DNA from: Nereocystis luetkeana
Lineage: Eukaryota; Sar; Phaeophyceae; Laminariales; Laminariaceae
Length of the DNA stretch: 64,000 nt
Assembly (NCBI GenBank): GCA_031213475.1
Contig: JARUPZ010000002.1
Coordinates: 15,314,738 to 15,378,737 of the forward strand
Direction of reading: 5' to 3'
Below the pieces are notes generated by a model, which saw only the letters and a list, made by a program, of their open reading frames with translations, was not told where the DNA came from and ran no database searches. Made by a program: the position numbers and the translations under genes. Each line of letters opens with the position of its first letter. Position 1 is the first letter of the stretch. Positions 1,203 through 33,252 of this stretch are shown piece after piece.

Positions 1203-1241
<39 letters not shown>

Positions 1242-7500: not shown

Positions 7501-8583
7501 GTTGCATAGTACACCCAGCACCGTCTCTGGAAGTGTCAACACCAGAAATTGAATGAATTAATTGATGCTGTCATCCAAATGCAAGAAAATCCGTATTTTA
7601 AAGCGGTTCTTAGTAGGATGCAGCTTACCCCTCATGCGACTCGCCCAACACCTCACGGCGCTTCGCGCTTGGTGCAAGGTGATGTCTGCCTGGTCGGTGA
7701 AAACCCGACGTGCTCCGTCCCGGCATTGTACGAAGGGATGCGGGTCTATGGTCATACGACTACGGCCATGCACGATAATGAGTACCCCCCCCGCAGTCCG
7801 CCTCGAAAGCGGTTCTTAGTAGGATGCAGCTCACCCTTCATGCGACTCGCCAGACACCTCACGGCGCTTCGCGCTTGGTGCAAGGCAATGTCTCCCTGGT
7901 CGTTGAAAACCCGAAATGCTCGGTCCCGGCATTGTACGAAGGGACACGAGAGGGTCTATGGTCAAACGACTACACCCATGCACGAGATCGAGTACATATC
8001 TCGTATCGAGTACACCCCCCCCCCCCCCCCCCGCCCCCGCCTCCCCCCTCTCGCCCCCCCCAATCAATCGAAGACTTTGCCCAGGACACCATCGACGCCC
8101 TCCACGCCAAGGACAAGATTGTGGTGTGCTACATAAGCATCGGTACTCGCGAGGAGTGGCGCTCAGACAAAGACGACTTCCCTTCGGCGGCCATCGGTAG
8201 TAGCGTGGGCGGCTGGCCCGGAGAGACGTGGATCGACGTCAACAACGCAGCCGTGAAAGTCATCATGGAAGAGCGCGTCAAGAAGGCCCAGAGCATGAAA
8301 TGTGACGCCATCGAGCCGGACAACATGATGGTCTACTCCGAAGGCAGCGACACCGGGGTCTCCGTGACGAGGACGGAGCAGATCGAGTACAACAAGTGGT
8401 TCGCGGGGCTGGTGAAGTCAACCTACGGCATGCAGGTCGGCTTGAAGAACTCGGTGGAGCTGGTGCCCGACCTCGTGGACGACTTCGACTTCACCCTCAA
8501 CGAGGAGTGTCACCAGTGGGAGGAGTGCGATGTGAGTTCATATATATATATAGTCATAAAAAAGAGATGCAAAATAACTTGTG

Positions 8584-8623
<40 letters not shown>

Positions 8624-11600
8624 GCTTTTGTTGTTTTTTGGGTTTTTGTTACGTCAGGCAGGCAGTAAGTTACAGTAGGTAAATCGGCACCACCAATCTA
8701 TCTCTGCAGTCGCTGACAGACAGCACAACAACGTCGTCTGGCTGCAAAAGCGGCAGGCGAGGCAGGCAGTGCGAGTGATAGATATATAGCATATCGCCTG
8801 TGCATGATGAGGCAGCGAGCGGTTGACTAAAGGGGTTTGCGACCAAGGTCGCAAGCAAACCCCTAGAGGGGTTGCAAGCAACACTTGCAACCCCTCTTTT
8901 GGGGTAAATCTGACGTCCAGGCTTAACAAACTGGCACAGACGGGCCCTGGATTGTGTGCTTCGTCAGGGTGTACACCCCATACCCATTGAATCGTTCGTG
9001 TGGCAACCAGAACGAACTACCGTTATGAAATACTGTAGCTCAGTGGTCACCGTTGTACATCGTCTCCTGAAATAAAAAAATCGGGGGACCATATTAAGCA
9101 GGACCTACGGTACAGACAAAGAAAAACTATATATTTCGCTGTTTTTACCAACAATATTTCGGGTCCTATTTACTATGGTCCCCCGTAACAATTAACCAAC
9201 ACCTATTTACCTACTTTTACTAACAATTTTCGGTCCCATTTACCGTGATACCCCGCACTATTACGGGGGACCATAGCTAACAGGACCAAATATTGTTAGT
9301 AAAAATGCTTAAATATATAGGTTCTTATGTATACCATAGGTCCTATTAACTATGGTCCCCCGCAATACAATAACATTATATCACGAATACGTTCCTAGTA
9401 ATATTTGTCTGCAAGTGATTGCTACTACTTTATAATCAAGTCAAAACAGTTATATTGGGAAGAAGGGGGCGTACTCATTTGGTTCTTTCCTTAGTCTTTC
9501 GACCATTGACCACGCATGCATCCCTTCCGAGACTGAGGGGGGGGGGGGGGGGGGGGGGGGGCGTACTCACTTGTTGCTTGTCTTAGTCATTTGACCATTG
9601 ACCACGCATCCCTTTCGAGACGGGGGCGGGGGGGGGGGGGGGGCGTACTCACTTGTTGCTTGCCCTAGTCATTTGACCATTGACCACGCATCCCTTTCGA
9701 GACGGGGGGGGGGGGGGGGGGGGGGGCTATGTTACAACACGATCGGTAGTTCGCTAACCCGATAAATTATCTAAAGCTATAGACCAGACTACCTGCCACC
9801 TGTTAACCCTTTTTAGAACTGCAGTCTCATTTTGGGGGCAATCCACTCAAATTTCAAATAGTTTGTCCCCAAATCGGGACCGCGGTTCTCTTGGGAATTC
9901 CGAGGGAAAAAGTTGACGACGAAAAAAAAAGGAATAAAAAGCGACGGTTTCAGCGACCATTGTGGTCGGTGGTCACTGCGTGTTTTGTGTCCGAGCTCCG
10001 ATTCTAAGGAGTACTCTCGTACGCCAACACGAGCCAACACGGCCCTACACGTGCTGCTGTGGGCGCTCACTCGCTCACTCCGCTCGTGTACACGAGACGA
10101 GCTCGATACACAGCACCAAGAGATATCGTTGTTGCCGGCCCCCGTTTTAGAGCAAACTGCAGTCGGAGCCTTGTCGGGGACGAACTACTTAGAATGAGAC
10201 TGGTTTGTCCCTCCCCCCCCCCTAAACGGGGCTGCATTTTTTCGGCCTAAAAGGGTTCAAGCGTATTCATTCCGGTCTATCGGTGCGCGAAACCACGGAA
10301 GATCTAATTTATCGTACGTAATGAGGCGTTCTACGATAGAAAAGACAGAGGTCCACCCTAATTTTTCTGAGGCTCTTCACAGAAGGAGTGAGCTCCATTA
10401 CCTCACCCGAAAACTGACTTCAGCAAAAATCAAATTGCCACTCGATGGATAATCCCACGGCCCCAGTATACTAAAACGCCATTTTTCGAGACAAGATTGG
10501 CGTTCCGACGATTTCGGGATAAGGAACCCCCGGTCATTCATAAAACGCAATATTCCGGGGGGGGGGGGGGGGGGGGCATAGTAAATAGGAACAAATATTG
10601 TCCGTAAAAATAGCGATATATATAGGTTTTTGTGTGTACCGTAGGTCCTATTTACTATGGCCCCCCGTATTAGCGGAAATGTGCAACCTCTATCGCATAT
10701 CTCCGGAGACTGTTGTCGTGCACGTATATATATAGGCGCTCTCGCCCGAAGCTTGGAAATAGAGCAAGGCGGTTTGCAAACAAAGCTCCGTATTTTCCCA
10801 AAAAAACAAAAACAGAAAAAAGTGCTGCAACAGAAAAAGGCAAGAAATAACTACCAGTTTCAAGTACATACGGAGTGAGCTCCTGTGGTCTTAAGCCAGA
10901 TACTCTATTTATTAATATTAATACAGTAGTTTTTTTCGTTGGGCCATCCCCCACTGCTGTTCAGGACAAGTTTCAACCCGATATCACAATCAGCTGAATT
11001 ATTCCAGCCCACGTACCTTGGTATGATGCCAGTCTGCGGTGTTCATGCTCACTCCGTCCCTCTCTCTCCCTCTTGCCCCGTTCCGATTGGCGCATCTCTT
11101 ATTCTTGTCCCGCTCTGATTGGCGCATACCTACCCCCCACATCTTTTTGTCCAGTTCCGATTGGCTTATCTCCTGTCCTTGTCGGTCCCCTCACATCGCC
11201 CGTTCGTTCTGATTGGTGTATTGCATCTATTGCTTTTGTCCCGTTCTGATTTGGTGCATCTCTCGTCCTTGTCCCGTTCTGATTGGAGCGTATCCCCCTT
11301 CCGTTCTGATTGGTGCACCCCCCCTGTTCTCGTCGGCCCCCTCACATCTCCTGTTCTGATTGGTGTATTGCATCTATTGCTTTTGTCCCGTTCTGATTGA
11401 CCCGCATCTCCTGTTGTTCTTGTCACTGACCGGTGTCTCTCATGTCTCTGTCCGTTCTGGTTGGCTCGCACCTCTTTGTTTCTTCTTCTTGTGTGTTTTT
11501 GATATCTCAGCTATGCAAGCCCTTCCTAGACCAGGGCAAGGCCGTCTTCAACGTAGAGTACAACCTAGGCAAGACCATGTGCAACGATGCAAACGCCATG

Positions 11601-14475
11601 GGCCTGGACACCATCGTGAAGGTAAGCAGAAAAAACCTCCCGCCTGTTTCCTGTGTGTTTGTGTTTTCTTCACATTTTACCATTCTTTCTACCGGTCGAA
11701 CACCCGGCAAGCTGCCGTGCGTCGGTTACCGCACAATAACTGGTACGGTACGCAACAACAGCAGTAGTAGTAGCGTTTCTACTACTGCAGTAGATATTAA
11801 TATTAATACTGGGCGTACGCAACTGGCACACGTCTGGCACACACAGCTGGCACACATCTGCTAATACGGGGGGCCATAGTTAATAGGACCTATCGTATAC
11901 ATAAAAAACCATATATTTAACCATTTCTACTAACGATATTTGGTCCTATTAACTATGGTCCCCCGTAATAATAGCACTTGATACACAACTTTGTATACAA
12001 CAGGATAGTTGGGCAAGTACGTACGTAGCCTATATATCGGTTTGCTGTCTTGGACAACAGCAGTGGTCTGACGATGAAAAGCGGATTCGGGTATAACCCC
12101 GACCGAAGAAGAAGTGCTCACCTCTGTCTGACGCGCTGTTGTGGTGGTGGCCTGGCCGTCCGGCGCGAGAAACTCGGCGCAAGGCCTACCACACGCGCGC
12201 GCATGGATGAGAGCTAGCTATACGAGCTACCCTCGTTACAAGTATGACCTTTTTAGGACCCCAGTCCCGTCTTGGGGACAAACTACCCAGAATAAGACTG
12301 CTTTGTCCCCAAAACGGGGCTGCGCTCCTAAAGGGGATTTAAGAGGAAAATACCTTTCGCCGCGACAGAGTGTAGCACTGCATCAGTAACACGCAGGGTA
12401 GCATATGCACCTCTTGATAGGGATGGATTTCCGAGCACTAATAATCGTAGCTGCTGCGAAAACAGGGGGGGGGGCGGGGGGGGCGTACTCATCTGTTGCT
12501 TGCCTTGAGTCATTGGACCATTGACCACGCATTCCTTTCGAGACGAAACGGAGGGGGGGGGGGGCAGGCAAGCACATAACGAAAATGGTGCCTTTGTCGA
12601 GGGAGGCTTCAAATCATGCAGCCCGAATATCAATCTCCGGTAGGCTTGTCTTATCTTATAGCTATGACCTGTCGAGGCTGATTTGTTGTTTTTTTTTGCG
12701 CCAGTTTTGGTGTTCAATGATGGTTTCCTTGACGACTATCCGTTAGGTAGGGTGAAAGTGTACTGTTTTTAGTGTTCCTTGACGACTTCCCTGACGGCTA
12801 TCCGTCAAGGTGAAATTTACTAGTTTTAGTGTTACTTGACAGCTTCCTTGGCGGCTTCCTTGACGGCTATCCGTCAAGATGCAAGTGTACTATTTTTAGT
12901 GTTCCTTGACGACTTCCTTGACGGCTATCCGTCAAGGAGCACGTCCGCTAGTGTTTGTGTTACTTGACGGGTTCCTTGACGGCTGCCCGTGAAAGGGTAA
13001 GTGTGCCGTCAAACGGCATTATTTGCCCACAAGCCGTGTCACGGGAATGTAAAGACCGTCCTTGTGGGAATTATTATAGTGTGAATACCCAAACGGCCCC
13101 ATTCATTTCCAGACAAGAGCGGTAGATAAAGCCGTTTTACCGCATGAGTTACAAGTAGGGATTGCAATTAGGTATTGCAACTAGGGATTGCAATTAGGCA
13201 TTGCAACTAGGGATTGCAATTAGGGATTGCAATTAGGGGTTACAATTAGCGATCGAAATTAGGGATTGCAAGTAGGGATCGCTTTCAGGGGTTGCAATTA
13301 GGCGTTGCAACTAGGTGCTGAAATTAGGATTGCAAACAGGGGTTCCGCTTTTGAGTCTAAACATATTTCCCAATGGCGGTACTGCTCAACTCGCAACCTA
13401 TGAACAATTCTGTCCCAATATATAAGGACCTTTTGCTTATTGAAGTCTAGTCAAAACGGTCCTTACTTTTATCTCGAGACAGAGTAGTACCCAACATCTT
13501 TGTGGACTCGATGTTGGATGTTGGGCAACGCCACCGGCTGTGTAGGGGATGTTTTTGTGTTTCTTTTTCAAAGTAGTGGCTCACACGGCTGAGCTCAACT
13601 AGCCTTTACACCCGAAACTTATATTGCGCTATTGTTGGCCCTAAAACAGAAGATACCATAATACGTACGAGTATATACAGTAGTAAAATGACCATACTCT
13701 ATACCAGGTGAAATAACCCGCATACGATAAGTCAACCGGTCAGAAAAAAAAACTGAGTCGAAATGACCTCAACCGGTCAGAAAAAAACCGTTTCGAAAAG
13801 TGCAACAACCTCTCAATGCAGCGCTTCGTGGGACGCGTTTATGGTACTTTTGACAGAAGTGTTTCGTGAGATACGTACGTACGCAGTCTCTCGTGTGGGG
13901 TTGTGTGTAGCAGGGGCTAGGGTAGAGGTATTACGGGGGACCATAGTTAAAAGGACCTATGGTATAAATAAAAACCTATATATTTCACCATTTTTACCAA
14001 CAATATTTGGTTCTATTAAATATGGTCCCCCGCAATAGCATTCGTTTTTTTCCCCCGAGTTCGGTTGTTGGGGAAAAGGGTAAAAAATACGTCGCCCTCT
14101 TCCCTTCAAGGGATAGAGAATCCCCAGAAATGTTAGCTGACAGCCCCTATCTACCGTATAACTTGTCCCATAACGCCTGCCTACTTCCGCAAACCCCTGA
14201 CACATGACTTGTGACAGGTCTCTTTTATACACCCCCCCCCCGCACTCGTCCGATACCGCCCCCTCTGCGTGCATACTCCTTTGGTACATGACGTATGACA
14301 GGTTTCTTGTTTATACACACCCGTTCCCCCCCCCCCCCCCTTCCCTCGTCCTTTTTGCACCCTTTGCACGTTTTCGCTCTCACAATAATGGTGGCAGAAC
14401 TACGACCTGGGTGCACCCCTATGCAGTTGCCTCGACTCGTCGAGGGACTCGGGCTGCGAAAGCCTGCTATCGTGA
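252..14475 (+). CDS. Secreted GH114-family glycoside hydrolase (polygalactosaminidase-like), four exons
   Basis: Exons 252-798, 8074-8531, 11511-11621 and 14398-14475 give 1,194 nt: 397 residues and a stop. Junctions are GT-AG with matching phases (1, 0, 0). The product has a signal peptide (about residues 1-23), a short Cys-containing segment to about residue 67, a Pro/Thr/Ser/Gly linker (68-147), and one GH114 domain (about 158-385). Family hallmarks seen: [15 protein letters not shown] (199-207), [16 protein letters not shown] (229-238), CDAIEPDN (259-266), [14 protein letters not shown] (304-309), [11 protein letters not shown] (324-334), VFNVEY (347-352) and DTIVKNYDLG (368-377). Family members are TIM-barrel enzymes cutting galactosaminoglycans; the acidic EPD/NEE residues suit catalysis, but the substrate here is unknown. 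It is probably exported. The introns are 7.3, 3.0 and 2.8 kb and full of mobile elements. The family call is firm; the last exon is less certain than the others. Confidence 0.88.
515..690 (+). repeat. Coding minisatellite in GH114 linker
   Basis: About six 12-bp units (CCTACTCCCTCG) followed by about seven 12-bp units (CCTACTCCCGGG type). They encode Thr-Pro-Ser-Pro and Thr-Pro-Gly-Pro repeats. Units are whole codons, so length changes keep frame. Confidence 0.85.
881..1239 (+). mobile_element. SINE-A, full-length tRNA-derived copy
   Basis: A tRNA-like head with A box (TGGTTCAAGTGG, about 893-904) and B box (GGTTCGAGCCC, 936-946), a body of about 260 bp, and a poly(A) tail of about 37 bases. 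A near-identical full copy lies reversed at 44384-44721. It sits in GH114 intron 1 in the sense direction. Confidence 0.85.
1407..1531. repeat. CAG/TAG trinucleotide microsatellite
   Basis: CAGCAG units grade into a long (TAG)n run, interrupted once by the palindrome ACTATTAATAGT. Long open frames through it are repeat artefacts. Confidence 0.85.
2372..2987. mobile_element. Large foldback (inverted-repeat) element
   Basis: Arms of about 190-210 bp (2372-2560 and 2776-2987) are inverted copies: GGCCACTTCTTATGCAG against its reverse complement near 2960-2985, and GTTTCCCGCTTCTTC against GAGAAGCGGGAAACACC. A second, nested inverted pair (GCACTTTTTCGATCCAA / TTGGATCGAAAAAGTGC) lies in the loop. 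No open frame; probably a non-autonomous foldback DNA element. Confidence 0.7.
3788..3923. repeat. Near-perfect palindrome with internal direct duplication
   Basis: The outer arms TGTGTCCATGGTGCTGTAAT and the inverse around 3902-3923 pair almost completely. The 46-bp inside carrying GTGCTGTAATATGACTCCAG is present twice in tandem, so several alternative hairpins are possible. Confidence 0.75.
4616..4658. repeat. (CATC)n microsatellite
   Basis: About ten units of CATC/CATCCATC, read as TCCATCCATCCA; tetranucleotide tract in GH114 intron 1. Confidence 0.8.
4709..4855 (-). mobile_element. Diverged SINE-A body fragment
   Basis: Matches the reversed SINE-A body with many differences: CCGGGGTCC, then TACGTGCCTTGACTTTTATCG and CGTCGACTCGC in the same order. 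Head and tail are not recognisable. Confidence 0.5.
5448..5554. mobile_element. MITE-1 copy
   Basis: About 105-bp palindromic element. Family termini are TTACGGGGGACCATAG and its inverse, next to TTAATAGGACC or TAAATAGGACC, around an AT-rich centre. Intact copies are flanked by TA on both sides, pointing to Tc1/mariner-type mobilisation. There is no coding capacity. This copy has the TAAATAGG subtype. Confidence 0.8.
6409..6926. repeat. Tandem array of four MITE-1 copies
   Basis: Copies at about 6409-6530, 6551-6660, 6679-6790 and 6809-6926 repeat with a period near 130 bp. Spacers between the later copies are nearly the same (TAGACACGGGTACGACTA), so the array grew by tandem duplication of MITE plus flank, not by repeated insertion. 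Confidence 0.8.
7229..7266. repeat. Long poly(C) run
   Basis: About 20 consecutive C, TAGT, then another C run. One of many exceptional G/C homopolymers in the window. Confidence 0.85.
7599..8032 (+). repeat. Two tandem copies of the C-tailed repeat
   Basis: Units start at about 7599 and 7806 with AAGCGGTTCTTAGTAGGATG, are about 85-90% alike, and each ends GAGTAC(A)CCC followed by a C run (8 and about 18 bases). The second C run supplies the pyrimidine tract of GH114 exon 2. Related copies lie at 9466-9726, 12465-12564, 30190-30283, 33150-33252 and perhaps 36510-36590 and 62521-62560. Confidence 0.75.
8074..8531 (+). CDS. GH114 gene exon 2: core of the catalytic barrel
   Basis: Acceptor AAG follows a long C-rich pyrimidine tract. 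The first two bases complete the Asp codon begun in exon 1, giving [15 protein letters not shown] with no gap against the family. The exon encodes residues 183-335 with nearly all diagnostic GH114 motifs and ends at a GTGAGT donor at 8532, on a codon boundary. Confidence 0.92.
8584..8650. repeat. (GTT)n microsatellite
   Basis: About 14 GTT units, 50 bases past exon 2 of the GH114 gene. Confidence 0.85.
8831..8899. other. Twin adjacent hairpins in GH114 intron 2
   Basis: Hairpin 1 (8831-8864) pairs AGGGGTTTGCGACC with GGTCGCAAGCAAACCCCT, with a small bulge. Hairpin 2 (8865-8897) has a perfect 14-bp stem, AGAGGGGTTGCAAG, with a 5-base loop. They abut with no spacer and share the GGGGTT core. 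Function unknown. Confidence 0.6.
9082..9188. mobile_element. MITE-1 copy
   Basis: Full-length but diverged at the left end. A half copy (about 9205-9250) and a second full copy (9261-9365) follow at once. Confidence 0.75.
9261..9365. mobile_element. MITE-1 copy
   Basis: Well-preserved palindromic copy flanked by TA on both sides. Confidence 0.8.
9466..9726 (-). repeat. Three-unit array of C-tailed repeat with G-run linkers
   Basis: Three minus-oriented bodies (about 9472-9536, 9562-9619 and 9645-9703) read CGTACTCACTTGTTGCTTG then GACCATTGACCACGCATCC and TTTCGAGACG. They are separated and followed by G runs of about 20-25 bases. Confidence 0.8.
9805..9895. mobile_element. MITE-2 copy
   Basis: About 92-bp palindromic family: CCCTTTTAGAACCGCAGTCC, then GTTTTGGGGACAAAC, and the inverse. 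Better copies are bordered by TTAA, matching piggyBac-type targets. Here the left end reads TTAACCCTTTTTAGAAC; the right terminus is eroded. Confidence 0.7.
10142..10257. mobile_element. Diverged MITE-2 copy
   Basis: GGGGACGAACTACTTAGAAT followed by the inverse and the CTAAAAGGGTT terminus. It carries a C-run expansion in its right arm. Confidence 0.6.
10323..10705. repeat. Dispersed repeat D, copy 1, split by MITE-1
   Basis: Shares AGGCGTTCTACGATAGA, TTCTGAGGCTC, CATTTTTCGA and TTCCGACGATTTCGGG in order with 17092-17350. Repeat D is interrupted at 10557-10670 by a MITE-1 copy; GCGGAAATGTGC resumes after the insertion. No open frame recognised. Confidence 0.7.
10557..10670. mobile_element. 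MITE-1 copy inserted in repeat D
   Basis: The left terminus has a G run of about 20 bases where other copies have five or six. The right arm is normal. Younger than the host repeat. Confidence 0.75.
11040..11470 (+). repeat. TCTGATTGG minisatellite in GH114 intron 2
   Basis: About ten irregular units of 30-50 bp, each with CCGTTCTGATTGG followed by a GC- or GT-rich CATC segment, end just before exon 3. The ATTGG core is a reverse CCAAT box; regulatory meaning unknown. Confidence 0.75.
11511..11621 (+). CDS. GH114 gene exon 3
   Basis: A 37-codon phase-0 exon between a TCTCAG acceptor and a GTAAGC donor. It encodes residues 336-372, including KAVFNVEY and MGLDTIVK, which match the end of the GH114 barrel. 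Confidence 0.9.
11864..11968. mobile_element. MITE-1 copy
   Basis: TTAATAGG subtype with both termini; in GH114 intron 3. Confidence 0.8.
12246..12336. mobile_element. MITE-2 copy
   Basis: Both arms recognisable (CTTTTTAGGACC and GGCTGCGCTCCTAAAGG), with GGGGACAAACTAC inside. TTAA borders not kept. Confidence 0.7.
12465..12564 (-). repeat. C-tailed repeat, single copy
   Basis: Reversed copy: G run, CGTACTCATCTGTTGCTTGC, GACCATTGACCACGCATTCC, TTTCGAGACG, then a second G run. Confidence 0.75.
12735..13010. repeat. Minisatellite of CCTTGACGRCTTCC / GACGGCTATCCGTCAAGG units
   Basis: Four to five diverged units of about 60 bp. Each contains a small internal inverted repeat (TTGACGG / CCGTCAA). 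Confidence 0.75.
13155..13345. repeat. 13-bp minisatellite GATTGCAATTAGG
   Basis: About 14 imperfect units, mostly GGATTGCAATTAG or GGATTGCAACTAG. Confidence 0.85.
13931..14035. mobile_element. MITE-1 copy
   Basis: Full palindromic copy flanked by TA on both sides, 362 bases before GH114 exon 4. Confidence 0.8.
14398..14475 (+). CDS. GH114 gene exon 4: C-terminus and stop
   Basis: A pyrimidine-rich stretch and GTGGCAG acceptor precede 25 codons and TGA. NYDLGAP directly continues IVK from exon 3 and fits the K-x-x-D-L ending usual in GH114 proteins. The tail holds three cysteines (residues 381, 383 and 392). The exon was found by motif and phase, so it needs transcript support. Confidence 0.7.
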   Translation, partial: NYDLGAPLCSCLDSSRDSGCESLLS

Positions 14476-14964
14476 AGAGAACCAACTCCTGCCTATGAAT
14501 ATTAGAGTTCGGATGCTTCTGCCGGTTCTTAACCACAACCAAAGAAGGCCTCTCCCTCGTGCGTGCGGCAACTAAGTGCTGTAGTTCGTGCTTAAGCCGG
14601 TTTTGGATATACAGCCGTTCGTTTTTGATTGGGGGTAAACATACACACACAAACAAACAGCAGAGGCTGGCTGGCTGGCTGGTGGTGTGAAGAAAAGCTG
14701 TCGTCCATGACAAGCTACCGGAGCTGATTGTTATTACTATTATCATTATTATTATTATTATTATTGGTGATAAAAAAACACCACTGTACGAGTAACTGGT
14801 AGCTCGGGAATACAGCAGTCAGAAACCTCTGCTTGCTCGTTGGCGTGCGGCGTTGTCCGTAGCGTCTGGTGCTTCGATCACACCCCCGAGGGCTGAGCTG
14901 ACGCAGATGTAGACGGCCGCTGCACGCCCACCACGGGAGGGGGGAGTGACTATCTTCCCTTCTG

Positions 14965-15082
14965 TTACCGGGAAACATAGTTATCAGGACCAAAGACGAT
15001 TAGCAAAATTTAATATACTGAAATATATACCAGGTAGTAATTTGTGTGTATGGTGGGTTCTGATTACTACGGTCCCCCGGAG
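14965..15082. mobile_element. Diverged MITE-1 copy
   Basis: Arms CATAGTTATCAGGACC and GATTACTACGGTCCCCCGG are still readable. A TACCAGGTA motif lies in the centre. Confidence 0.55.
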
Positions 15083-15123
15083 TACTTCCCGTTGTTTCCC
15101 CCAAAAACGGATGTAACTTTTTC

Positions 15124-15232
15124 TTACGGGGGGGGACCATGTTAAATAGGATCAAACATTGTGAGTAAAAACACGTAACTATATAGATTTTTGTGTTACC
15201 AAAGGTCCTGTTTACCATGGCCCCCCAGTAAT
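15124..15232. mobile_element. MITE-1 copy
   Basis: TAAATAGG subtype, 40 bases after the previous diverged copy. Confidence 0.75.
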
Positions 15233-15644
15233 AAATAGTACCTGGTACGTTTTTAGAAGCAACGTGTTTCAAGTTTCGTTAGGCACACACACGTCGTCAT
15301 GTTCGATTAGTTCGGGCAAGTCTGGGTGGGCGTTTGACTGCTCCCTTTTTTTTTCCCCGGACGACGAAGGTCAAGCCTTTTTTGGTTGTCAAGTCCCGGG
15401 GAATAAATAGTCTAGGGGGGGGGGAAGCGTTTGTTCGCTCTGATGGCGGTTGCGTTTCCCGTCGGCTTTTTGCTGAGAAGGGGTAGGAGGGGAAGAGGAA
15501 GGGGAAGAGTAGAGGAGAACGAGCGTGCGGTGTGGGTGTGGGGTCTCTCCTCTTCCACCAGCCGAAAGAAAATGCGGAGCAGTACAATCGGCGTTCGTTC
15601 GCTCGTGTCCGCAGTTCGAGCAGGCAGGCCTCCTCTCGCTTGCT

Positions 15645-15722
15645 CGTTTGGTTTGGTTTGGTTTCGTCTGGTCCGGTTTGGTTTGAGTTGGTTTGGTTTG
15701 GTTTGGTTTGGTTCGGTTTGGT
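15645..15722. repeat. (TTTGG)n microsatellite
   Basis: Imperfect GGTTT pentamers, about 14 units. Confidence 0.85.
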
Positions 15723-16459
15723 ACGAGTATAGTTTCAGTTTTGGTTTTCGGATGTGTGTACCTCGGAGCGGAACTGCATGCGGCGGTACGTGGGCAAACA
15801 GAGCCACGGCACGATTACTGCAAGACCCGAGGGGGATGTAGACGTGGCTGTCGTTCTTTTCCCCCCCTTTCTCCTCTCGTCCGCTATGCGCTACCCGTAG
15901 GGCACGGGGAGGGAGAGACGCTCACTCACACTCGCAGGCTTAAGAAACCTTTTTTTTTAACGTTTTTTTTCGGTTGTTTGTTGATACCGATATGTTGCAT
16001 CGAGGTGAGGGGGGGGGGGGGGCGAGAAGAGAGCCTGCACTTCGGAGCTTTGTTTAGAGCTGGGTAGCAGAGGGTGGAGAACATCTGATTGGTTTGATTT
16101 TATGAGCACGCAACGGATTTTTGATCGAACTCCACGATAGCCTAGGCACGCGGATCTCATGATATATACATATATAGGATATAAATAGATACGTAGGCGG
16201 GAACAGTGCAATTGGTCTGTTTCCCTTCAGTTAGTTTTCATTAGGGGGGGGGGGGGGGTTGTTTTTTTATGAACGCTCGATGTTGATTGAAGCTGCCATG
16301 CTGCACGAAAAAATGCCAGACGGGAAACAAACGCGATAATTTTTATTCCATTTAAATTGTTGACCGGTCGATAGTATTAATATTTTAGTAGCATTATCGA
16401 TAGTGGTGGTGATTGGGTGTGGGTGGGCCTGTAGATTGGCGACCCCGCTGGCGGTGGTA

Positions 16460-16564
16460 TTACGGGGGACCACAGTTAATAGGACCAAATATTGTTAGTA
16501 AAAATGGTCAAGTACATCGGGTTTTATGTGTACCATAGGTCCTATTAACCATGGTCTCCCGTAA
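16460..16564. mobile_element. MITE-1 copy
   Basis: TTAATAGG subtype flanked by TA on both sides. Confidence 0.8.
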
Positions 16565-17091
16565 TAAGAGCAGCGGAGTCGTGCATGAACCGCCCATTTT
16601 TATCTCAGGAACAGAAACAATCGATGTATTATGTGGTACTTCCGTCAGGAATAAGAAAATCGATTCGGCATGCAGATCTCACGGGAGTAAAAAAATCGAT
16701 TCGGCATGTACTCGTACTCGTATACACGAGCATTTTTCGGGGAAAAGAAAACCGATTTGGTATGTATCTATTCATACCAGGTATTAATTAATCAGGGAAC
16801 AAGACAATCGATTGAGAAAACCGATTTGTAACCAAGTATCGGGAATCAGACACTTGATTTGACGTGTACTCGTACTCCCAAGGGATAATCGTCAAGAAAC
16901 TCGATTAACTACTACAGTAGATGTCTGCACTCAAGAGTTCAATTACCAGCGAACAATATCGTAGTGGACGATGACAAAATCAATCAACGCGCGTCAACGA
17001 GTACCAACGACCGACCGACACAAACACACGCTACTCGTAGGTCTTGCATGCACGCACGGCACCAGCAGCACCAAAAATCATCCAACCCCGA

Positions 17092-17350
17092 GGCGTTCTA
17101 CGATAGAGGTTCACCCTCTATTTTCTGAGGCTCCTCACCCGAGGAGCTCCACACATCACGCGAAAAATGACGTCAGCTAAAATCAAGTTGCATCCAGATG
17201 ACTATTAATAATTCCATTACCCAAGTATGCGCAAAGGTCATTTTTCGAAACAAGATTTGGCATTCCGACGATTTCGGGTTAAGGAGCCCCGTCATCCAGA
17301 AAACGTTTTGGCGGAAATGTGCTATTCATACCTCTATCGTCCCAAGACAG
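17092..17350. repeat. Dispersed repeat D, copy 2
   Basis: Uninterrupted relative of 10323-10705, running from AGGCGTTCTACGATAGAGG to GGCGGAAATGTGC. A short piece with the TTTCTGARRSTYCTCAC / GAGGAGCTC core also occurs near 28545-28575. Confidence 0.7.
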
Positions 17351-17654
17351 TAATAATCGCCTCCACCTTGTTCCGCAATCTTCCACCAGCAACCAGACAT
17401 TGGCCTTTTTGAAGCTCCTCTGCAAAAATGACCGCGAACTCTAATTCCAGGCCCTGTTCACTGATTGTTCAGCTTGTTATAATTCTAAATTTCCCGATTT
17501 CCAAATGTCCAAATTTTACCGCCAAGGGCTGCGCTGGTATATCAGAGGAAAAAAGGTCTTTGAAAGAAAATTTGGAATTTTTGGAAAATTCGGAAGTTTG
17601 GAAATTTGCCAAAAAGACTATACCGGTAGTGGAGAAGGCGTAACAGTAGTTATG

Positions 17655-17985
17655 AGGACCTTTACCAATCTGGGAGAAGGGATCTTTAGGTTGGTAGGAT
17701 GTTCGGGTGTTTTGGTTCCTGTTGGGATCAAGGTACGGGCGAAGACCCAACCCACAACCCCAGACTCTATATAACCCTAACCCTAACCCTAACCCTGACC
17801 CCAAACCGCAGCCAAAACGGGCCAAAACTCGCCCTAAACGCGGCTGCGCCGCGTTTGCATCGAACCAGGAAACTTCTCAGTTGCGGACGACGATTCCGAA
17901 GTGCAGACCACGCTACGCATTTTTTAAGTCAAAAACATCCCTGAAGATCCCTTCTCCCAGATTGCTAAACCTATTCGTAGCTATA
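17655..17985. mobile_element. Foldback element with (CCCTAA)n in its loop
   Basis: Arms around 17665-17690 (ATCTGGGAGAAGGGATCTTT) and 17940-17970 are inverted copies. Between them, at about 17773-17797, lie four CCCTAA-type units, then CCCTGACCCC. Confidence 0.65.
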
Positions 17986-18597
17986 TATTTTTAGTTGTCT
18001 ACCAGGTATAAAACATTCGTTGGCTACAGCAGTTATTTTTGAGGGGTTCAAAATGATACCAGTATAGTAGTTGTACCAAAAACCCCTGTGCCTGGTACGT
18101 AAGAAGGAGAAAAAAAACAAAAACATAGCGTTCAATAATAACATCGGCACAAGCGCCTCAACCGCTGTGGACTCCCTCCCCTCACCACCGTCCTATACGC
18201 CAGCACCCAACAAAAAGTACTGCAACCTCGCCCGAAAACGTCAGGCCGTAAAACACAATAACGCACGGAGATAGATGTACCCTCGACGGTACTCGAGGAG
18301 CGCACAACAACGCACGCGGAGCACGCACGAACGCTATCAATAGTCGACAGTCCACGGCGGAACCCTCGACCTCCCCTCCTCCCCCTTCCCGCCAACAGTC
18401 AGTGTGCATCAGACGCCCTCCTCCGGAGTTTCCTATTCGGCTGGCATCGCTGTTCACCGCCGCCATCGTTCATCCTGAAAGCTTTGAGCAAAGAAATCAC
18501 GTACGAATACCCCCCCCCTCCCCCGAGAGCGCGTGCACGCCTCACCTCTTCCGTGTGTGGAACTCCCGAACGTCGTGCCTAATTTAGGTACATACTA

Positions 18598-18702
18598 TTA
18601 CGGGGGGCCATGGTTAACAGGACCAAATATTGTTAGGAAAAATGGTTAAACATATAGGCTTTTATGTATACCATAGGTCCTGTTAACTATGGTCCCCCGT
18701 AA
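18598..18702. mobile_element. MITE-1 copy
   Basis: Full copy flanked by TA on both sides. Confidence 0.8.
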
Positions 18703-19129
18703 TACGATTTTTAACAAGTAGAGAAATCACGATATGTCAGGTCCAACAACTGCTTGCGGGCCTGCTGCTATTAATAACAGCAGCATCTAACTGTTCGGGG
18801 TTTCTACCAGGCAGTATCCACTACCTGGTAGGCATTGCCATTCTCTCTCTCTCTCTCGACCAACCACACAAGGTCTGCCAGCGAAGGTCAATGCTTGAAA
18901 AAGCAAACCCAGAATAGACAAAAACCAACACGCCTCAATATCTCTCTTGCGACAAACCACGTAGTTCCTCGGTTCGGTCGCCGATCTCTGATAAAACCCT
19001 CTTTCTTCCGAAAGGTGAGCCATGAGCATGATCTGCACGCTATCACAAGCTACAGGCACGCTCCTGGTATCCTGCACGTTGTGAGCATATATAGCAATAG
19101 TTAGCCGCTCATTCTCCTTCGGCTAACAA

Positions 19130-22140: not shown

Positions 22141-22146
22141 CATAAT

Positions 22147-22242: not shown

Positions 22243-22258
22243 AATAGCCTGTGTCGTG

Positions 22259-22794: not shown

Positions 22795-22831
<37 letters not shown>

Positions 22832-24129: not shown

Positions 24130-24328
24130 TTTTTTTTTTTTTTTTTTTTTCCATCCCATTCATTCTCTTCGCACATCTTCTTCTCTCTCTCCTTCCAACT
24201 CGTAACTCAGATCCGGGGTCACATAGCAGGCTCTTCTCCCCCCTTCCCGCTACGGTACGTGCCTTCATTTTTTATCGCGAGAAGATTTCAGCCTTTTCTT
24301 CCCTCGTCGACTCGCATCGAATTGTGCG
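24130..24328 (-). mobile_element. SINE-A, 5'-truncated copy
   Basis: Poly(T) of about 21 bases, then the reversed SINE-A body up to GCATCGAATTGTGC. The tRNA head is missing. Confidence 0.8.
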
Positions 24329-25007
24329 TATGACACACCGTAACTACAGTACAGCAACTTCATGGATCATAATATGTGTGAACTTACTTCATCGTCACAG
24401 CTGAAGGTACGAGCACCGAAAATACAAAAAATACGAAAATACAGGACATTTTCGGACAAAACGGGAAAACGAGCATCATTTTTGCAAGTTTGGCAGGACG
24501 GCGTTGACGCCTTGTGTCGCTTGCCGGTGTTGTGCGAATACCAGGTATGTACCAGTACGCAATTACGAGATGTGGAAATGATACGTATACACGTATACAA
24601 TCGGAAACGGATCGGAAACGGATCGGAAACTGGAAAACGACTGTTTCTGTCCACGTGCGGGAGGCGAGAGGAGAGAGGATGAGAGGATTTATTTCAGCGT
24701 TTATTAAATTGTCAATATTTCTACGAGTTCCGTTTGACATCCCACAATGTGCAGCATGGGCTTCAACGTTGATCACTTTAAAAAACATTGGCCCTCTGTT
24801 ACAGATCGGTACATCGGCTGTGAGTTCGACCGATTGAGTGGTTGATGTTTTGAAATCATGGTCTATATTATTATTGATTGAAGCACATCAGCAGCAGCAG
24901 TAGCAGCAGCAGCAGCAGTGACGTGTTTGGGCAGCAGGCGACCCTACCACCGGGTGCTTACTACAGCAGTAGAAGACGGAGCCATGCAGCAGGGTTCTCT
25001 TTCGCAC

Positions 25008-26937: not shown

Positions 26938-27105
26938 AAGATGCCCAAAGCGCGCTACGTGTAACCATAATATATATGAGGTTCGCATGCGGGTATGTTC
27001 CCAAAGCACAACGTGCAACCATGTAGGATTCTCGCCCCACGGACATATTCCCAAAAGCTCTACTTGTAACCATATGAGATTCGCATACGGGTTTGTACGT
27101 CCCTA
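26938..27105. repeat. Three-unit tandem repeat of about 55 bp
   Basis: Units share TTCCCAAA, CTACTTGTAACCATATGAG and GTTCGCATGCGGGT-type segments with moderate divergence. Confidence 0.65.
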
Positions 27106-27363
27106 TGCGGTGGATGTACTACTTATTATTTAATAGTCCATCACATACCGGTACTACAGCAGCAACCGGCACTACTCCGCACAAAGCCAGACTGGTACGT
27201 AAATCCCATCTGCGCCCGCGATTTCGCCACCACTGATTGGTCAATTTTTCAGGATGGAAATCGCAACGTGTGCAGCGTCTTGAAGTCACTAAATACGCGA
27301 CCTGAAAGGCCGAACTCAACCGACGCTGCTGAAAAGGGGCCACTGCTGTACTGTGCTGTGCCG

Positions 27364-27447
27364 TATACCACTCTGTCCCTAAAAATAGTGACCGCTTTAT
27401 TGAATATTAGCACACAAAAGTTCATTATTTTTAGGGGCAGAGTAGTA
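27364..27447. other. Short hairpin element
   Basis: CTCTGTCCCTAAAAATA pairs with TATTTTTAGGGGCAGAG around a 43-base loop; MITE-like but seen once here. Confidence 0.5.
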
Positions 27448-27860
27448 TGTAACACGGGTTGATAATATAACACACCGAACTTCAGAGCCGATCTTCCCTC
27501 AAACGTGGTGGGGGGGGGACAGAACCGACATGGTGGTGGCTTTGGAAGTTTATTAATCATCGAGCCATTTTTTCTATGAACGTGTCGTCGCTCGGCGATT
27601 CCACTCTCCCCCGCTTTGTTGCCGAGAAAACCAGCTTTCTTTGAAGATCATCCGAGGGGTGTGTCGTGTGTGCGTGATCTTGAGTGTTAGATACGGGTAG
27701 CATAGTAAGGAGCTGTATATGTCTGCCAGCAGGCGCGTTTGTATTTTTTCACGTACGTATAAGTAGCTCTACGTCTGTTTTTATTGAGAACAACTACGCC
27801 ACTTTTGAGCTGGCTTTTCTTCGCCACCGAATTCACGACAAGCCGTGAACAAAAATCCAG

Positions 27861-28077
27861 TTGTGGAAATGCCTACGCATCTTCCTCATATGTGTTTGTG
27901 ATCAATGTGCAGCAACACTGTTCTATATACTTCATGAATGAGTAGAAGCATGTGTGATCGGTATGATAAGTGCCGGCACACATGCTTCTGCACGTACGTG
28001 AAGTACGTAAAACAGTGCTTTTTATACTGAACATTGATCACAAACATAATAAGGAAGATGCGCAGGCATTTCCATAA
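27861..28077. mobile_element. Foldback MITE, about 215 bp
   Basis: Outer arms pair TGGAAATGCCTACGCATCTT with its inverse near 28050-28076, inner arms pair TGTTTGTGATCAATGT with ACATTGATCACAAACA, and AGAAGCATGTGTG pairs with CACACATGCTTCT at the centre. No coding capacity. Confidence 0.75.
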
Positions 28078-28365
28078 CAGCTTACATGCCTTTCCCCGCG
28101 GCCTTTGCAACAACATACTTATCACCCCGAAAAAATGCCAACCCCAGCAAAGAAAGAGAGAGAGAAATTTCGTGGCTTGCCTTCTAAAATCTTGCTAGGT
28201 AGGGTCAAGTGTGACGAGAGATGGACCACCAAGAGATGACGTCGTCTCCCCGTGCCAGTTTTCATTATCTGGAGTGGCTCTTATCTGGAGTGGCTCAGCT
28301 GGTGGTGGGGTTCCCTTTATTTTTGTCCTCAAATCACCTCCCCTGCCTGCCTTTCCCGCCTACTT

Positions 28366-28460
28366 ACCCCTCTTTTAGGGCTGCAGTCCCGTTTGGGGGA
28401 TGAACGACACTCCAATTCCAAGCAGTTTGTCCCCAAAACGGGACAGCAGTCCTGGAAAAC
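28366..28460. mobile_element. MITE-2 copy
   Basis: TCTTTTAGGGCTGCAGTCCC on the left and GGGACAGCAGTCCTGG on the right, with diverged ends. Confidence 0.7.
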
Positions 28461-28645
28461 CAGAGTAGTAGTAGTAAAAAAAGAAATGACGAAAAACGGA
28501 ACGATGTAAAAGCATGCTCGAACGGTAGGAGTGGGCCGGATTTTTTCTGAAAGTTCCTCACTCGAGGAGCTCGATAATTTCGAGAACAAGAAGATGTAAG
28601 TTCACAAACCCGACTAGCCATCCATGTGGCCTTAAACACATGACG

Positions 28646-28738
28646 AGAACCCAGGCCCGTTTTGGGGACAATCCACTCAAACTCCAAGTATTTTTCCCCC
28701 AATTGTCCCCAAAACGAGACGGCAGTCCTAAAAGGGTT
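28646..28738. mobile_element. MITE-2 copy
   Basis: Right terminus GTCCTAAAAGGGTTAA keeps the TTAA border; the left terminus is eroded. Confidence 0.7.
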
Positions 28739-29159
28739 AAGAACCCCCCCCCGCCCCGACGTTTTACGGATAGTTCCTCAGTTAAGGGCCCCCGTTAGAC
28801 TGGAATCTTGCCTCAGAAGGCACAAAGTGTCACCCCGACGTACGGTAGCACGGGTCAAGAGTACGCACGTACGTGGTACGTAGCAGGGGGTATTCAGAGG
28901 GACAAAGACGGGCCTATGTGCGCAAACCCGATGCTAGGCACACGGTGCTGTTACAAGGCGTAGATTGGGTAGGCGATGTGGTTTGCTCATTATTACCAGT
29001 ATGTAGCCCAACGGATTTAAGACCTTTACAATACAACGATGTCAGTAATAACGTGAACAGAAACACGACATAAATGATAGCATTGCAACGCTGTTGGGTA
29101 CTACGTAGCTCGTCTAGGTTGATTTGAGGAGCGCGCTCCTCCCTACCGGGCTGAAGAGA

Positions 29160-29227
29160 TAACCTATCTATGCTGGACCACTCAGTCGACGCTGAATCCG
29201 TAGCTGACTGAGTGGTCTGGTAGGTTA
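29160..29227. mobile_element. 68-bp hairpin element
   Basis: TAACCTATC...GGACCACTCAGTC pairs with GACTGAGTGGTCTGGTAGGTTA almost fully around a short loop. Confidence 0.6.
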
Positions 29228-30189
29228 TGGCTTTTGACCAATAAGTGATACCGGGTATGCATGAGTTCGATATAAATGCTACCTCATCAACTTATCCAGG
29301 TGGAAAAAATAAGGGGGGAAGGCGGATTCCCCAGTTCTGACCAGCAGTAGTAGCGTGTGGCGAGGGGCTTCGCCCCGGAGATAACGCCGAGACTGAGTCG
29401 CACTCACAAAACACGCGGTATACCTGGTACCTGGTATATTTTATTGGGCGGAAGGGATATATAACCTACTACTACTGTAGACCAATCAGCCACATCACTT
29501 GGAGTAGTATTGATAGTACTATAGAACTAACATTCCCGACTGTCAGAATAATAAAAATGGCACCCAAAGTACCCCCCCCCCCCTCTAATGTGGTGTGGCT
29601 TATTATCCGGAGAGTTAGAGGTTTCCGTTGTTGCATGCAGTTGCTTGCTTGATTGTCGGACGTCTTCTGAGCGCAGGGGCGAGGTATTAGTCAGCCACGC
29701 AGGCGATAACGCCTGCCAGGTATTATGAGGGGACACTTGCTACAAATCAGAACGCCGCAACAGGGGAGAGGCGATACCATAACACCGTGGTATCGCGCGC
29801 GCACCCGTTTTCTCGAAAAAAAAACACACACACACACGGGAAAACACTAAATACAGGTAGTACTACTATTAATAGTAAAAGGTACAGCAATCGATCATTA
29901 TGTCACTGCAGACTTTTCGCAGTAAAACTGGGAATAGTGCTGATGTGCTTCTGGCTTCTGTGTAATTGCAGCTACAATATGTTTGTACACATATGTATAC
30001 GTACGTGCGTACAGGAGGAGGCCAACCAAGTCACGATACACAGACTGATCTGTAGGTGGTTTGGCCTTTTTCATGCTAGAACTGGAGAAGTTAAATGCCC
30101 CGCGGCCCCGCAGTTCTATCCTTTGCACAGCCGCTACATGATCTCCGGCCATCGCGCCCAACTGTTAGAGGTATCTCTATTGGGAGTAG

Positions 30190-30283
30190 GAACGGTGCTC
30201 CGTCTCGAAAGGGGTGCGTGGTCAATCGTCAAATAAATGACTAAGGCAAGCAACAAATGAGTACGCCCCCCCCCCCCCCCCGT
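30190..30283 (+). repeat. C-tailed repeat, single copy
   Basis: CTCCGTCTCGAAAGGGGTGC, GTGGTCAATCGTCAAATAA, AGGCAAGCAACAAATGAG, then TACG and a C run of about 16. Confidence 0.75.
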
Positions 30284-30751
30284 CCCGAGCCTGTGTTACA
30301 GCTGGTGCTCTCGTCCGACGGTCTGACCGCCGGCGGATCGGCGGAGAAATGCGGGATTACGAAGAGCCCTCTGTCGGATAGAATACTACCGAATACTGCG
30401 CAACATATGGCGAGATTGGATTGTAAATATTCCGACGGACATAGAGATTCTATCTACTACCTTATTTAGAAGATAGAATGTGCGAATTTTATATTAGTAA
30501 AAAAGCCACGGAATGGAAACTAACTGCTGTAGTTTACGTAGCTCGTCGATGTTGCCAGCTTACTTACTGTAGGTCGCACCAGTATGTATGAAGGTCGTGC
30601 ATATGAGTGTGGTGCTGGGGTGGAATTTCAGCTGTATTCTGCTCCGTTTTTTGGTGCGGTATATACTTCGCACGACTCATTCATATCGGTAGTCGGATTG
30701 CATTTTGTTCTGGTCTCCGCTGTTTGATCTGTGCGGTATATATATATATTA

Positions 30752-30982
30752 TTTTTTTTCTCATCCCATTCATTATCTTCGCACATCTTCTTCTCTCTCT
30801 CCTTCCAACTCATAACTCAGATCCGGGGTCACATAGCAGGCTCTTCTCCCCCCTTTCCCGCTACGGTACGTGTCTTCATTTTTATCGCGAGAAGATTTCA
30901 GCCTTTTCTTCCCTCGTCGACTCGCATCGAATTGTGCCTACCCACGCTGCAAGGCGCTCTCAACAATTGAATCCTTTTTTAT
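30752..30982 (-). mobile_element. SINE-A, 5'-truncated copy
   Basis: Short poly(T), then the reversed SINE-A body to TTGAATCCTTTTTTATT. The tRNA head is absent. Confidence 0.8.
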
Positions 30983-31044
30983 TGGTATAGAAAACCGTAG
31001 AGGTGTACGATGAATGCAATATATGCATATATATACACGTATAC

Positions 31045-31262
31045 CACGTATAATATACCAGGTATAATCTACCAGGTAATATATTATACCTGGTATATGA
31101 TACCTGGTATACATACATTATATCTGTGTATACCTGGTATATACTTTAGATACATATATATATGTATATATTATACATATACCAGGTATATATTATACAC
31201 ATACCAGGTATATATTATAGATATACCTGGTATATAATATATATACCTTGGTATATATATTG
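31045..31262. repeat. AT-rich cluster of eight TACCWGGTA motifs
   Basis: Eight TACCAGGTA/TACCTGGTA motifs separated by TATATA-type sequence in about 200 bp, both orientations. Strongly self-complementary. Confidence 0.85.
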
Positions 31263-31533
31263 GTGCCGGAAGATATTATTACGGCAGCTGTCGTGTTCAC
31301 ATGCAGTATATTTTCTATCTCGCATACCTGGTACTTCATAATGCCTACCTGGCTTGCTGGCTGTGTAGCAGGTGCATTTACGGTATTTTTACGTTGAGAA
31401 AGTCACCGCCGTAGGCTTGTTTCATTCTTGCCGGACCTGGTACTATGTATGATTCACACGAACAACGGGTGAACGGTCGGCACGTTGATGTTGTAGGATG
31501 CATCGTATCGATGTACTGCGCAGGCAACTACAA

Positions 31534-31541
31534 CTGGCAGC

Positions 31542-31578
<37 letters not shown>
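31534..31578. repeat. (AGT)n microsatellite
   Basis: About 13 AGT units following GGCAGC. Confidence 0.85.
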
Positions 31579-31623
31579 CCACTATTTACTTTGTCAAAAC
31601 ATACCGCGCGACAGTTCAGCACG

Positions 31624-31714
31624 AGTTTTAGAACCGCAGTCCCGTTTTGGGGACAAACCAGTCAAATTTCAAATAGTTTGTCCCCAAAACGGGACTGCGG
31701 TTCTGAAGGGGTTT
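31624..31714. mobile_element. MITE-2 copy
   Basis: One of the best preserved copies: TTTTAGAACCGCAGTCCCG against CGGGACTGCGGTTCTGAA. Confidence 0.8.
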
Positions 31715-32477
31715 TAAGCTTCGCACATACTCATTCCACGTAGAAAATCGTCAAGCAGAAGAAGAATGAGAGTGAAAACAGTAAGTACTTAGTGCTGACC
31801 ACTAAGCGCGATGCTCGTAGTGCTATCTATCATAGTGCACGTTACGGTTCAAGGCACAGAAAGAGGGACGGCGCGGTCTACTCTGACGCCGGGCTGTGGT
31901 TGGGAGTAACAACATTAAATTTATATATACAAATAACTAAAAATGCGTTACAGGACGCGCAAAAACACCAAGCCTTTAGCTATAATAATCGTGGAACAGA
32001 AACGGACGACGCACATAAATATACCAGATATATACTATTAATAAAAGGGAGAGATTCGACGCCCTTCGTTTTGCGAGTCAAGCAGCAAGGAACAAGCGTA
32101 ACCAAAACAAGAAAGAGCAACTAACCCTATATACTTCTACATATATATATATCTTACTCTGCAAACAATACGGCGATATCATGTCGCAACTTCATAGATT
32201 ATAGGTGGTCCCACCTATTTGATTTCGCATGGAGCACTCCTCTGTAAGTATACAATGTCATGGCATCTTGAGTTCTCCCGAAAGCTCTTTTGCGGGGGGC
32301 GTCGCGTTTACTGGCTCTACGAGAGCTCTACAAAGCTCCCCGGGAATACGGGGAGGTGATACACGAGTATACATACGTATTATTAATATGTGTGCCCTCC
32401 AAGGAATGTATCGTACGTGTTTCGTTCCATCTTGAATAAATCATATCGCAGTATTAATAGTAGTTCCTCTTCTATCA

Positions 32478-32586
32478 CTCGGAGCCAATATCTAGCTCGT
32501 TATCTCTCGTTAAGGGCTCCTACTTGCGTCTTCTTCTGACATACATATATCGTACGTACTCCGTCTATGAGCTAGATATTTGGTCT
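32478..32586. other. Hairpin element
   Basis: GCCAATATCTAGCTC pairs with GAGCTAGATATTTGG across about 80 bases; single copy here. Confidence 0.45.
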
Positions 32587-32674
32587 ACATAGTATCCCGA
32601 AACCGTGAATAGGCACATTTACCGGTAATAATCCCGATCCATCCTCCTGGTAGGTGGTGGCCACAGACGACGAA

Positions 32675-33060
32675 ACAGGAAGGTGTTATAAGGATTACTC
32701 TGGGCTGGGTACTCGATCGATCTTTTACTCCTCCTACAGCTCAGTAAGCAACACCCTTCACATTTGACATCGTCGAGGACATGGTCTCGAATCTCACTTC
32801 GAACGTTTATTTTGTAGAAACGCTCGCTTGCGGTCCCAAAAGACATACCAGGTACTTCGTATCTCCGTGGTTCCTCAGGTGTTGCCCCTAAACGGCTATA
32901 AGTCAGCGTACGGCCGTGTACGGTACCGACGCCCCAAAGATCCCGCCGTTTAGAGGGAGGGGGGAAGCGTTTCTAAGGATTACCCTGGGCTGGGTAATCG
33001 ATCGATATTTTATCCCAATAGCTCAGTAGGTGTTAATAACACCTTGACGAAGGGGACATG
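32675..33060 (+). repeat. Direct repeat pair with tRNA A-box-like motif
   Basis: TAAGGATTACTCTGGGCTGG followed by GTACTCGATCGATCTTTTA near 32690 recurs near 32976 as TAAGGATTACCCTGGGCTGG. Each ends in AGCTCAGTA(G/A); the second has TAGCTCAGTAGGT, an A-box consensus. No B box was found, so it is not called a tRNA. Confidence 0.5.
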
Positions 33061-33149
33061 AGAAAAGCAAAATGTGTATTCTATGTAATGCATGGAAAAA
33101 CTCGAAATGAGCGTCCAAGGCAGGTGTTGGAAGTGCCTCCATAAAGAAT

Positions 33150-33252
33150 AGGAACGGTGCTCTCCGTCTCGAAAGGGATGCGTGCACGTCAACGATCAAA
33201 TTACAAAGGCAATCAACGAAGCGAGCATACACTCTCCCGCCCCCCCCCCCCG
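33150..33252 (+). repeat. C-tailed repeat, single copy
   Basis: GTGCTCTCCGTCTCGAAAGG, GATGCGTGCACGTCAACGAT, then a CGAGCATACAC end and a C run. Confidence 0.65.

Follow-up and report, generated by a model that had tools for sequence, protein, structure and literature searches.

Poly(C)-tailed retrotransposon ends at C-tracts in the genome of the brown alga Nereocystis luetkeana

A dispersed repeat in a stretch of 64,000 nucleotides (nt) of the Nereocystis luetkeana genome (C2:15314738-15378737, within a 465-Mb assembly of 1987 contigs; hereafter the window) has copies that run into long homopolymers of C at the place where a retroposon has poly(A). Is this a new mobile family, or a satellite driven by the homopolymer itself? 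We found that the repeat is larger than first seen and is the end of a non-long-terminal-repeat (non-LTR) retrotransposon, i.e., a long interspersed nuclear element (LINE), here called A. It is likely, in our judgement, that the repeat as a whole consists of the 3' ends of A together with a 501-nt element, B, which has a similar 3' module, and that a poly(C) tail on the RNA pairs with a G-tract primer at genomic C-tracts.

The repeat body and its two elements

The body motif has 11,031 matches in the genome (5525 forward and 5506 reverse, at most two mismatches), against 4 + 3 for a reversed-pattern control. Our sample comprises 88 loci and the window, i.e., 363,204 bases; eight loci came from the motif search and the others are twenty 10-kb and sixty 1.25-kb stretches, the loci being centred on exact motif matches among the 100 matches listed, on contigs C1 and C2. 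The sample was chosen on the A motif and is not representative of the whole genome, and counts of A are given out of 104, two A-model matches that are B copies having been removed. Median identity to the consensus is 88.8% for A copies of at least 100 nt (best 98.2%, 60 copies) and 86.6% for B copies (best 97.5%, 51 copies), and the high best identities make some insertions look recent. The repeat body had no match in genome_contigs, nor had three repeat words in viral_contigs.

The body (CGTCTCGAAAGGGATGCG...GAGTAC) comprises the last 18-20 codons and the stop codon of a LINE protein, with four bases between the TGA stop and the start of the poly(C). An open reading frame (ORF) passes through the body in loci L011 and L023 and gives the C-terminus (N/H)GQMTKASN(NN)K followed by the stop. 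Locus L011 holds five ORF pieces between 2351 and 5056, all in one frame with stops between them, the last of which crosses the body. When six ORF pieces were searched against Pfam, the piece L023:3384-4496 contained the reverse transcriptase (RT) domain RVT_1 (E 1.4e-18, 67.8 bits), and its protein also matched the solved R2 (1.9e-12) and L1 ORF2 (5e-8); L023:2784-3383 reached 26.7 bits against RVT_1, below the cut-off of 29.6, and three of the six pieces had no Pfam match. With a same-frame RT domain upstream and an ORF that continues through it, the body encodes the C-terminal end of the LINE protein. The 104 A copies from the 88 loci and the window share a common 3' end at the poly(C) and differ in their 5' truncation, the shortest of the collinear copies being 49 nt long and the longest at least 4.8 kb. 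This supports the mobility and the fixed boundary at poly(C) that a sequence-only reading of the window had considered; its term for the family, SINE-like (from short interspersed nuclear element), holds for the copies at 7599 and 7806, which belong to the second element, and fails for the main body, a 5'-truncated LINE 3' end that includes ORF codons.

That second element is, on sequence comparison, unlike the LINE in its 5' part and similar to it in its 3' module. The 501-nt model of B has 81 matches in the sample, 23 of which start within 15 nt of the model 5' end, which is thus a defined one. The last 73 nt of B and the last 65 of A are identical at 53 of 73 aligned positions (E 1e-7), and B 1-425 had no match to two long LINE copies at E up to 1. 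B ends in GAGTAC, which is followed by C-rich sequence, in 20 of 60 copies after another TATCGAGTAC or near-variant. It has an internal T19 run, its best B-box match is 8/11, and A-box-like words (10/11) occur on both strands, so that it appears to be without a convincing RNA polymerase III (Pol III) promoter. A 5S- or tRNA-derived SINE was considered and rejected. Rfam at gathering scores and ARAGORN gave no match on the window; an Rfam scan of one full B copy had no match at E up to 5, and low-threshold scans gave chance-level matches only (E 2.9 to 9) or none.

The eight copies first noted in the window are all present, in both orientations and well beyond chance. A 29-nt body word has four matches in the window with at most three mismatches and none in 100 shuffles, a 22-nt 3' word has four and none in shuffles, and leave-one-out profile searches recovered eight of the ten copies in the window with E values no higher than 5.3e-5. 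Two copies are additional to those noted, both on the minus strand: a truncated B-type 3' end at 36526-36577 (blastn E 0.002) with a C-rich tail at 36487-36525, recovered by leave-one-out at E 0.024, and a probable remnant of a B 3' end at 62532-62571 with a C9 tail at 62523-62531. The latter was not recovered by the leave-one-out profile search and, in a comparison of upstream sequence, could be aligned with none of the other copies; it is a likely remnant of B, to judge by its B-like end (GAGTACA-C9). A C-run of at least five directly follows nine of the ten copies, although on either strand only about 1.4% of the positions in the window have such a run starting within the next 6 nt. The description of a body followed at once by a long C-run, on the strand of the copy itself, holds for the noted copies, except that the outermost one at 9471 has just five C and the one at 33150 has a gap, its C-run standing after CTCTCCCG.

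The LINE 3' ends on the minus strand are four short units: 9471-9537 (model length 63, nhmmer E 2.3e-10, five-C tail 9466-9470), 9563-9624 (62, E 1.2e-16, C25 tail 9537-9561), 9645-9706 (62, E 1.1e-16, C16 tail 9628-9643) and 12485-12549 (64, E 3.6e-14, tail 12465-12483 reading C8 G C10). C-runs also flank the 9466-9726 array (C23, 9704-9726) and the 12465 copy (C12, 12553-12564) at the 5' end. On the plus strand lie a 111-base copy at 30154-30264 (model 778-884, E 3.7e-31, C16 tail 30266-30281) and a diverged one at 33049-33227 (model 722-875 at 33049-33218, E 5.4e-25, C12 at 33240-33251), and a separate fragment of A was found at 32649-32691 (model 692-734, E 1.8e-5). Some limits had been drawn too narrowly: the copies placed at 30190 and 33150 begin at 30154 and near 33049, and the 7599 copy is merely the 3' part of an element that begins near 7285. 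This element is a nearly full-length B (7285-7785, plus strand, model 4-501 of 501, nhmmer E 5.3e-154, among the 13 copies behind the model), preceded by C-tracts at 7230-7266 (C23, TAGT, C10) and followed by a C8 tail at 7785-7792. A second, 5'-truncated B at 7795-8014 on the same strand (model 308-501 at 7795-7995, E 6.2e-60) has an extra ATATCTCGTATCGAGTACA end and a C18 tail at 8015-8032, from which a C-rich tract continues to 8061. About 12 nt separate the end of this tract from the first residue matched to GH114 (region 8015-8081), and the B tail at 8015-8061 may have been taken over as polypyrimidine tract by that GH114 exon.

Poly(C) tails and placement at C-tracts

The tail follows the A 3' end with great regularity. 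Behind 95 of the 104 A 3' ends C makes up at least 50% of the 20 nt that follow, and behind 98 a C-run of at least five lies within 40 nt (97 and 100 of 106 with the two B copies included). A C-run of at least eight lies within 45 nt after 77 of the 104 ends and a G-run after one, and in control intervals 300 nt further on such a C-run was found in 1 of 46. Behind B, a C-run of at least five occurs in 55 of 60 flanks (70 nt examined), and at least half of the first 20 nt are C in 31 of 60. Long runs are generally frequent in the window, with 24 of C, 24 of G, 26 of A and 33 of T of at least eight, compared with 0.9, 0.6, 1.8 and 1.9 in 30 shuffles; since all four bases are enriched, the runs alone are weak proof, and it is their position and strand that count. 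Of 157 C-runs of at least eight in the window and 20 of the loci, 71 adjoin a same-strand copy of A or B, a proportion biased upward because the loci were chosen for an A copy.

C-runs also precede the elements, locked to their orientation. In the 40 nt before A copies, 51 of 86 have a C-run of at least five and four of 86 a G-run, and at 300-340 nt upstream the excess is gone (5 versus 7 of 85). It is retained in A copies without a recognisable A or B end upstream (C 27 versus G 4 of 59, the starting 88 still including two B copies), and the 5' flank of B has a C-run in 50 of 67 cases and a G-run in none (3 versus 1 of 62 at 300-340 nt). Of 64 elements that lie at most 120 nt behind another's 3' end, 62 share its orientation and two are reversed; at 800-4000 nt the corresponding counts are 39 and 25. 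Among A 3' flanks without B, 13 of 65 share sequence with another flank. The flanks of the short units L013:4998-5060 and L019:4998-5059 resemble each other by about 81% on one side and 89% on the other; the units are either an older insertion that was later duplicated or two landings in one C-run.

Related sites that are unoccupied could be compared with three insertions, and each has a C-run at the insertion point. The site of the 605-base LINE copy L009:5563-4959 has relatives at window 4051-4119, with a minus-strand stretch at 4047-4061 that includes a C9 run, and in L018; the runs at the point of insertion are C9 to C11. The site of L025:4946-5059 has relatives at four places in the window and two in L028, reading TCTCCCCCCTTCCC or a near-variant, and by eye the copy L079:896-960 lies in the same repeat and the same C-run as L025:4946. 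The site of the B copy L028:4732-4862 is represented by window 32955-33023 (minus strand, CTTCCCCCCTCCCTCT) with C6. Many other candidate empty sites were discarded as self-matches, A or B tails, C-rich stretches or palindromic repeats. An interspersed repeat with many pieces 95-99% alike occupies window 881-1223, 24130-24373, 30749-30983, 44391-44722 and 62896-63008; the LINE insertion of L025 and, by eye, that of L079 lie in the C-run of a copy of this repeat.

A short unit of 61-70 nt stands out among the truncated copies. This model length accounts for 36 of the 104 A copies, 25 of which start at model positions 820-822, and the motif used for fetching starts near 823, which inflates the short class among anchor copies. 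Among non-anchor copies the class makes up 12 of 18, six of the 12 being from the window array 9471-9706 or from L020 and not all independent. The similarity between A and B begins at about the point where the short unit starts. At least half of the last 12 nt on the 5' side are C in 32 of 36 short units, compared with 23 of 49 longer copies. Either a fixed RT stop or an RNA fragment that is processed or protected would account for the unit. We hypothesize, with about an even chance of being right, that A is a LINE with C:G in place of A:T pairing between tail and primer, which seeks and enlarges C-tracts, and that its 61-70-nt terminal module moves independently, starts at a fixed 5' end and ranks among the smallest retroposons.

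Mechanism and competing explanations

In L1, a nicked T-tract pairs with the poly(A) tail. Target-primed reverse transcription with C:G pairing would mirror this A:T arrangement and fits the data. The RNA of the element would end in a C-run, an enzyme would nick at C-tracts, and the exposed 3' end of the G-tract would pair with the C-tail and prime reverse transcription. Synthesis of cDNA would often stop early, mostly about 63 nt from the end, B would be mobilised in trans, and the tails of old copies could be reused as new C-tracts, giving rise to head-to-tail chains. Slippage probably lengthens the C-runs, just as G has expanded in an unrelated palindromic repeat. The tandem look of some copies is consistent with elements landing in C-tracts or C-tails.

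Several observations weigh against this account. The RT piece of L023 and its last, C-terminal piece do not share a frame, and the match of L023:1718-2803 to the endonuclease-reverse transcriptase family Exo_endo_phos_2 (E 1.1e-5, 25.7 bits) stays under the cut-off of 27.4. No C-run of five precedes 35 of 86 A copies within 40 nt, so the targeting is not absolute, and the rise in C-runs persists from 40 to 120 nt upstream of A (C versus G 17 versus 3 of 88 at 40-80 nt and 16 versus 7 of 88 at 80-120 nt). RNA folding gave z -1.76 for the A module and -0.60 for the B module, the 3' hairpin that they share having no statistical support; seven single copies ranged from +0.66 to -2.27, and an apparent compensatory change in one copy was taken as chance. 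Target-site duplications, which the sequence-only reading had named as a check, are mostly undetectable; that the target already is a C-run may be the reason. Under strict criteria, 1 of 48 solitary copies and 0 of 935 shuffled pairs had a duplication with non-C content, and a looser search (score at least 12) gave 7 of 88 versus 14 of 261 in the control, which is no clear excess, the top ones being mostly nested repeats. In favour of the account, sequence is repeated on both sides in L004 (CCCCCCCCTGTCTAGCG) and, by eye, in L028 (CCCTCTGAACGG), and both duplications start within the C-run, at the position expected for the end of a G-tract primer. If most insertions duplicated their target, the duplications sit inside the C-run or have decayed.

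The chains could also arise if RT left one RNA for the C-tail of another, so that A and B would be joined in a single insertion event. Such template jumping predicts C-run linkers and neighbours of like orientation, as found in the 62 of 64 cases, and it may contribute to part of the chains; we doubt it as the general explanation, although it keeps some plausibility, because 5' C-runs persist in the 27 of 59 copies with no recognisable A or B end upstream and a C-run is already present at unoccupied related sites. Within 120 nt after the 104 A copies there is a B in 25 cases (and one more in opposite orientation), an A in six and neither in 72. The 25 like-oriented B copies, seven of them complete at the 5' end, could suggest one long LINE with B as its 3' untranslated region and an internal C-run between A and B, and they amount to shared sequence past the C-run, which the sequence-only reading had regarded as refuting mobility. 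The B copies behind A, however, start at many different points, from model position 1 to 458, which favours a second insertion over a continuation; B also precedes A in 23 cases, and no A was recorded ahead of 16 of the 23 near-complete B copies (for one of the 16 the stretch ends at that point), all of which makes a single A+B element improbable.

The satellite that had been offered as the alternative to mobility, in which unequal exchange between C-runs would multiply the units, finds some support in the array at 9466-9726, where two units have 98% identity to the query core and are linked by C, and one unit of it may stem from local duplication. For the repeat at large the satellite is scarcely credible, since it is contradicted by the copies without neighbours: the 72 of 104 A copies, and likewise 40 of 72 B copies, have no A or B element within 120 nt after the 3' end, so that the copies are not confined to tandem arrays; nor does it accommodate the variable 5' truncation and the attached RT ORF. 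Plain slippage at short C-stretches, unrelated to insertion, is in keeping with the abundance of runs of at least eight in the window (48 of C or G versus about 1.5 expected, 59 of A or T versus about 3.7) and with the expanded G-rich ends of an unrelated palindromic repeat at 6421 and 10557. It is nevertheless a very unlikely explanation, as it leaves the excess of C over G in the 5' flanks and the orientation lock unexplained.

Known systems and other features of the window

Mammalian L1 and Alu resemble A and B in having an RT ORF, 5' truncation, a homopolymer tail and a short partner element with the same tail. They differ in that C and G here replace A and T, and in that the resemblance of B to A is not confined to the tail but covers about 70 nt of 3' sequence. 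For L1, the cleavage preference is hard to separate from the pairing of tail and primer, because tail and target are both A/T-rich. The same layout in C and G offers a clean comparison: if pairing rules the choice of target, a C-tail should require primers that end in G. The A and B elements may also be a main source of poly(C)/poly(G) in this genome.

The stringent LINE/SINE pairs (eel UnaL2 and its SINE, the I element, SART1) are alike in that a SINE-like element has a LINE-like 3' end and in having tails of short repeats. They differ in that the tail here is a C homopolymer, the shared module overlaps the ORF and the stop codon, and B has a T19 run and seems to be without convincing Pol III boxes. 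Passages of a 2013 review describe tails of poly(A), TAA and TGTAA as well as SINE/LINE pairs with stringent recognition of the 3' end, and report that slippage was proposed for the short-repeat tails of UnaL2 (PMC3747384). Microsatellite-specific LINEs, such as the (TG)n-specific Togen and some HERO families, likewise insert into simple repeats, as passages of a 2015 paper state (PMC4640811); in our case the target is a C homopolymer that matches the tail of the element itself, and the targeting is partial. C-tails are unmentioned in the passages available from the two papers, and no poly(C)-tailed LINE or SINE was found among the titles and abstract openings listed, which is weak evidence, as the bracketed 'poly(C)' is not searchable.

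The window also contains the GH114 gene and apparent introns of kilobase length, which would fit a eukaryote such as a stramenopile alga. An irregular array of short units with CCGTTCTGATTGG at 11030-11460 seems to lie within a GH114 intron. A palindromic family of about 110-130 nt (TACGGGGGACCATAGTAAATAGGACC) occurs at 5440-18721, 34018, 41192, 53443 and 54929; the G-run at its end has grown to G15 at 6421 and to G20 at 10557. A second palindromic family (CAGTCCCGTTTTGGGGACAAAC...GTTTGTCCCCAAAACGGGACTGCGG, about 87 nt) was found at 9812, 12252, 22266, 28652, 31627, 44874, 49068, 54684 and 55237. A 300-nt direct repeat of 100% identity lies at 39863-40162 and 43097-43396, 3.2 kb apart, and two minisatellites at 12691-12995 and 13123-13343 have units of about 58 nt with TTGACGGCTATCCGTCAAGG and of 13 nt (TTGCAATTAGGGA).

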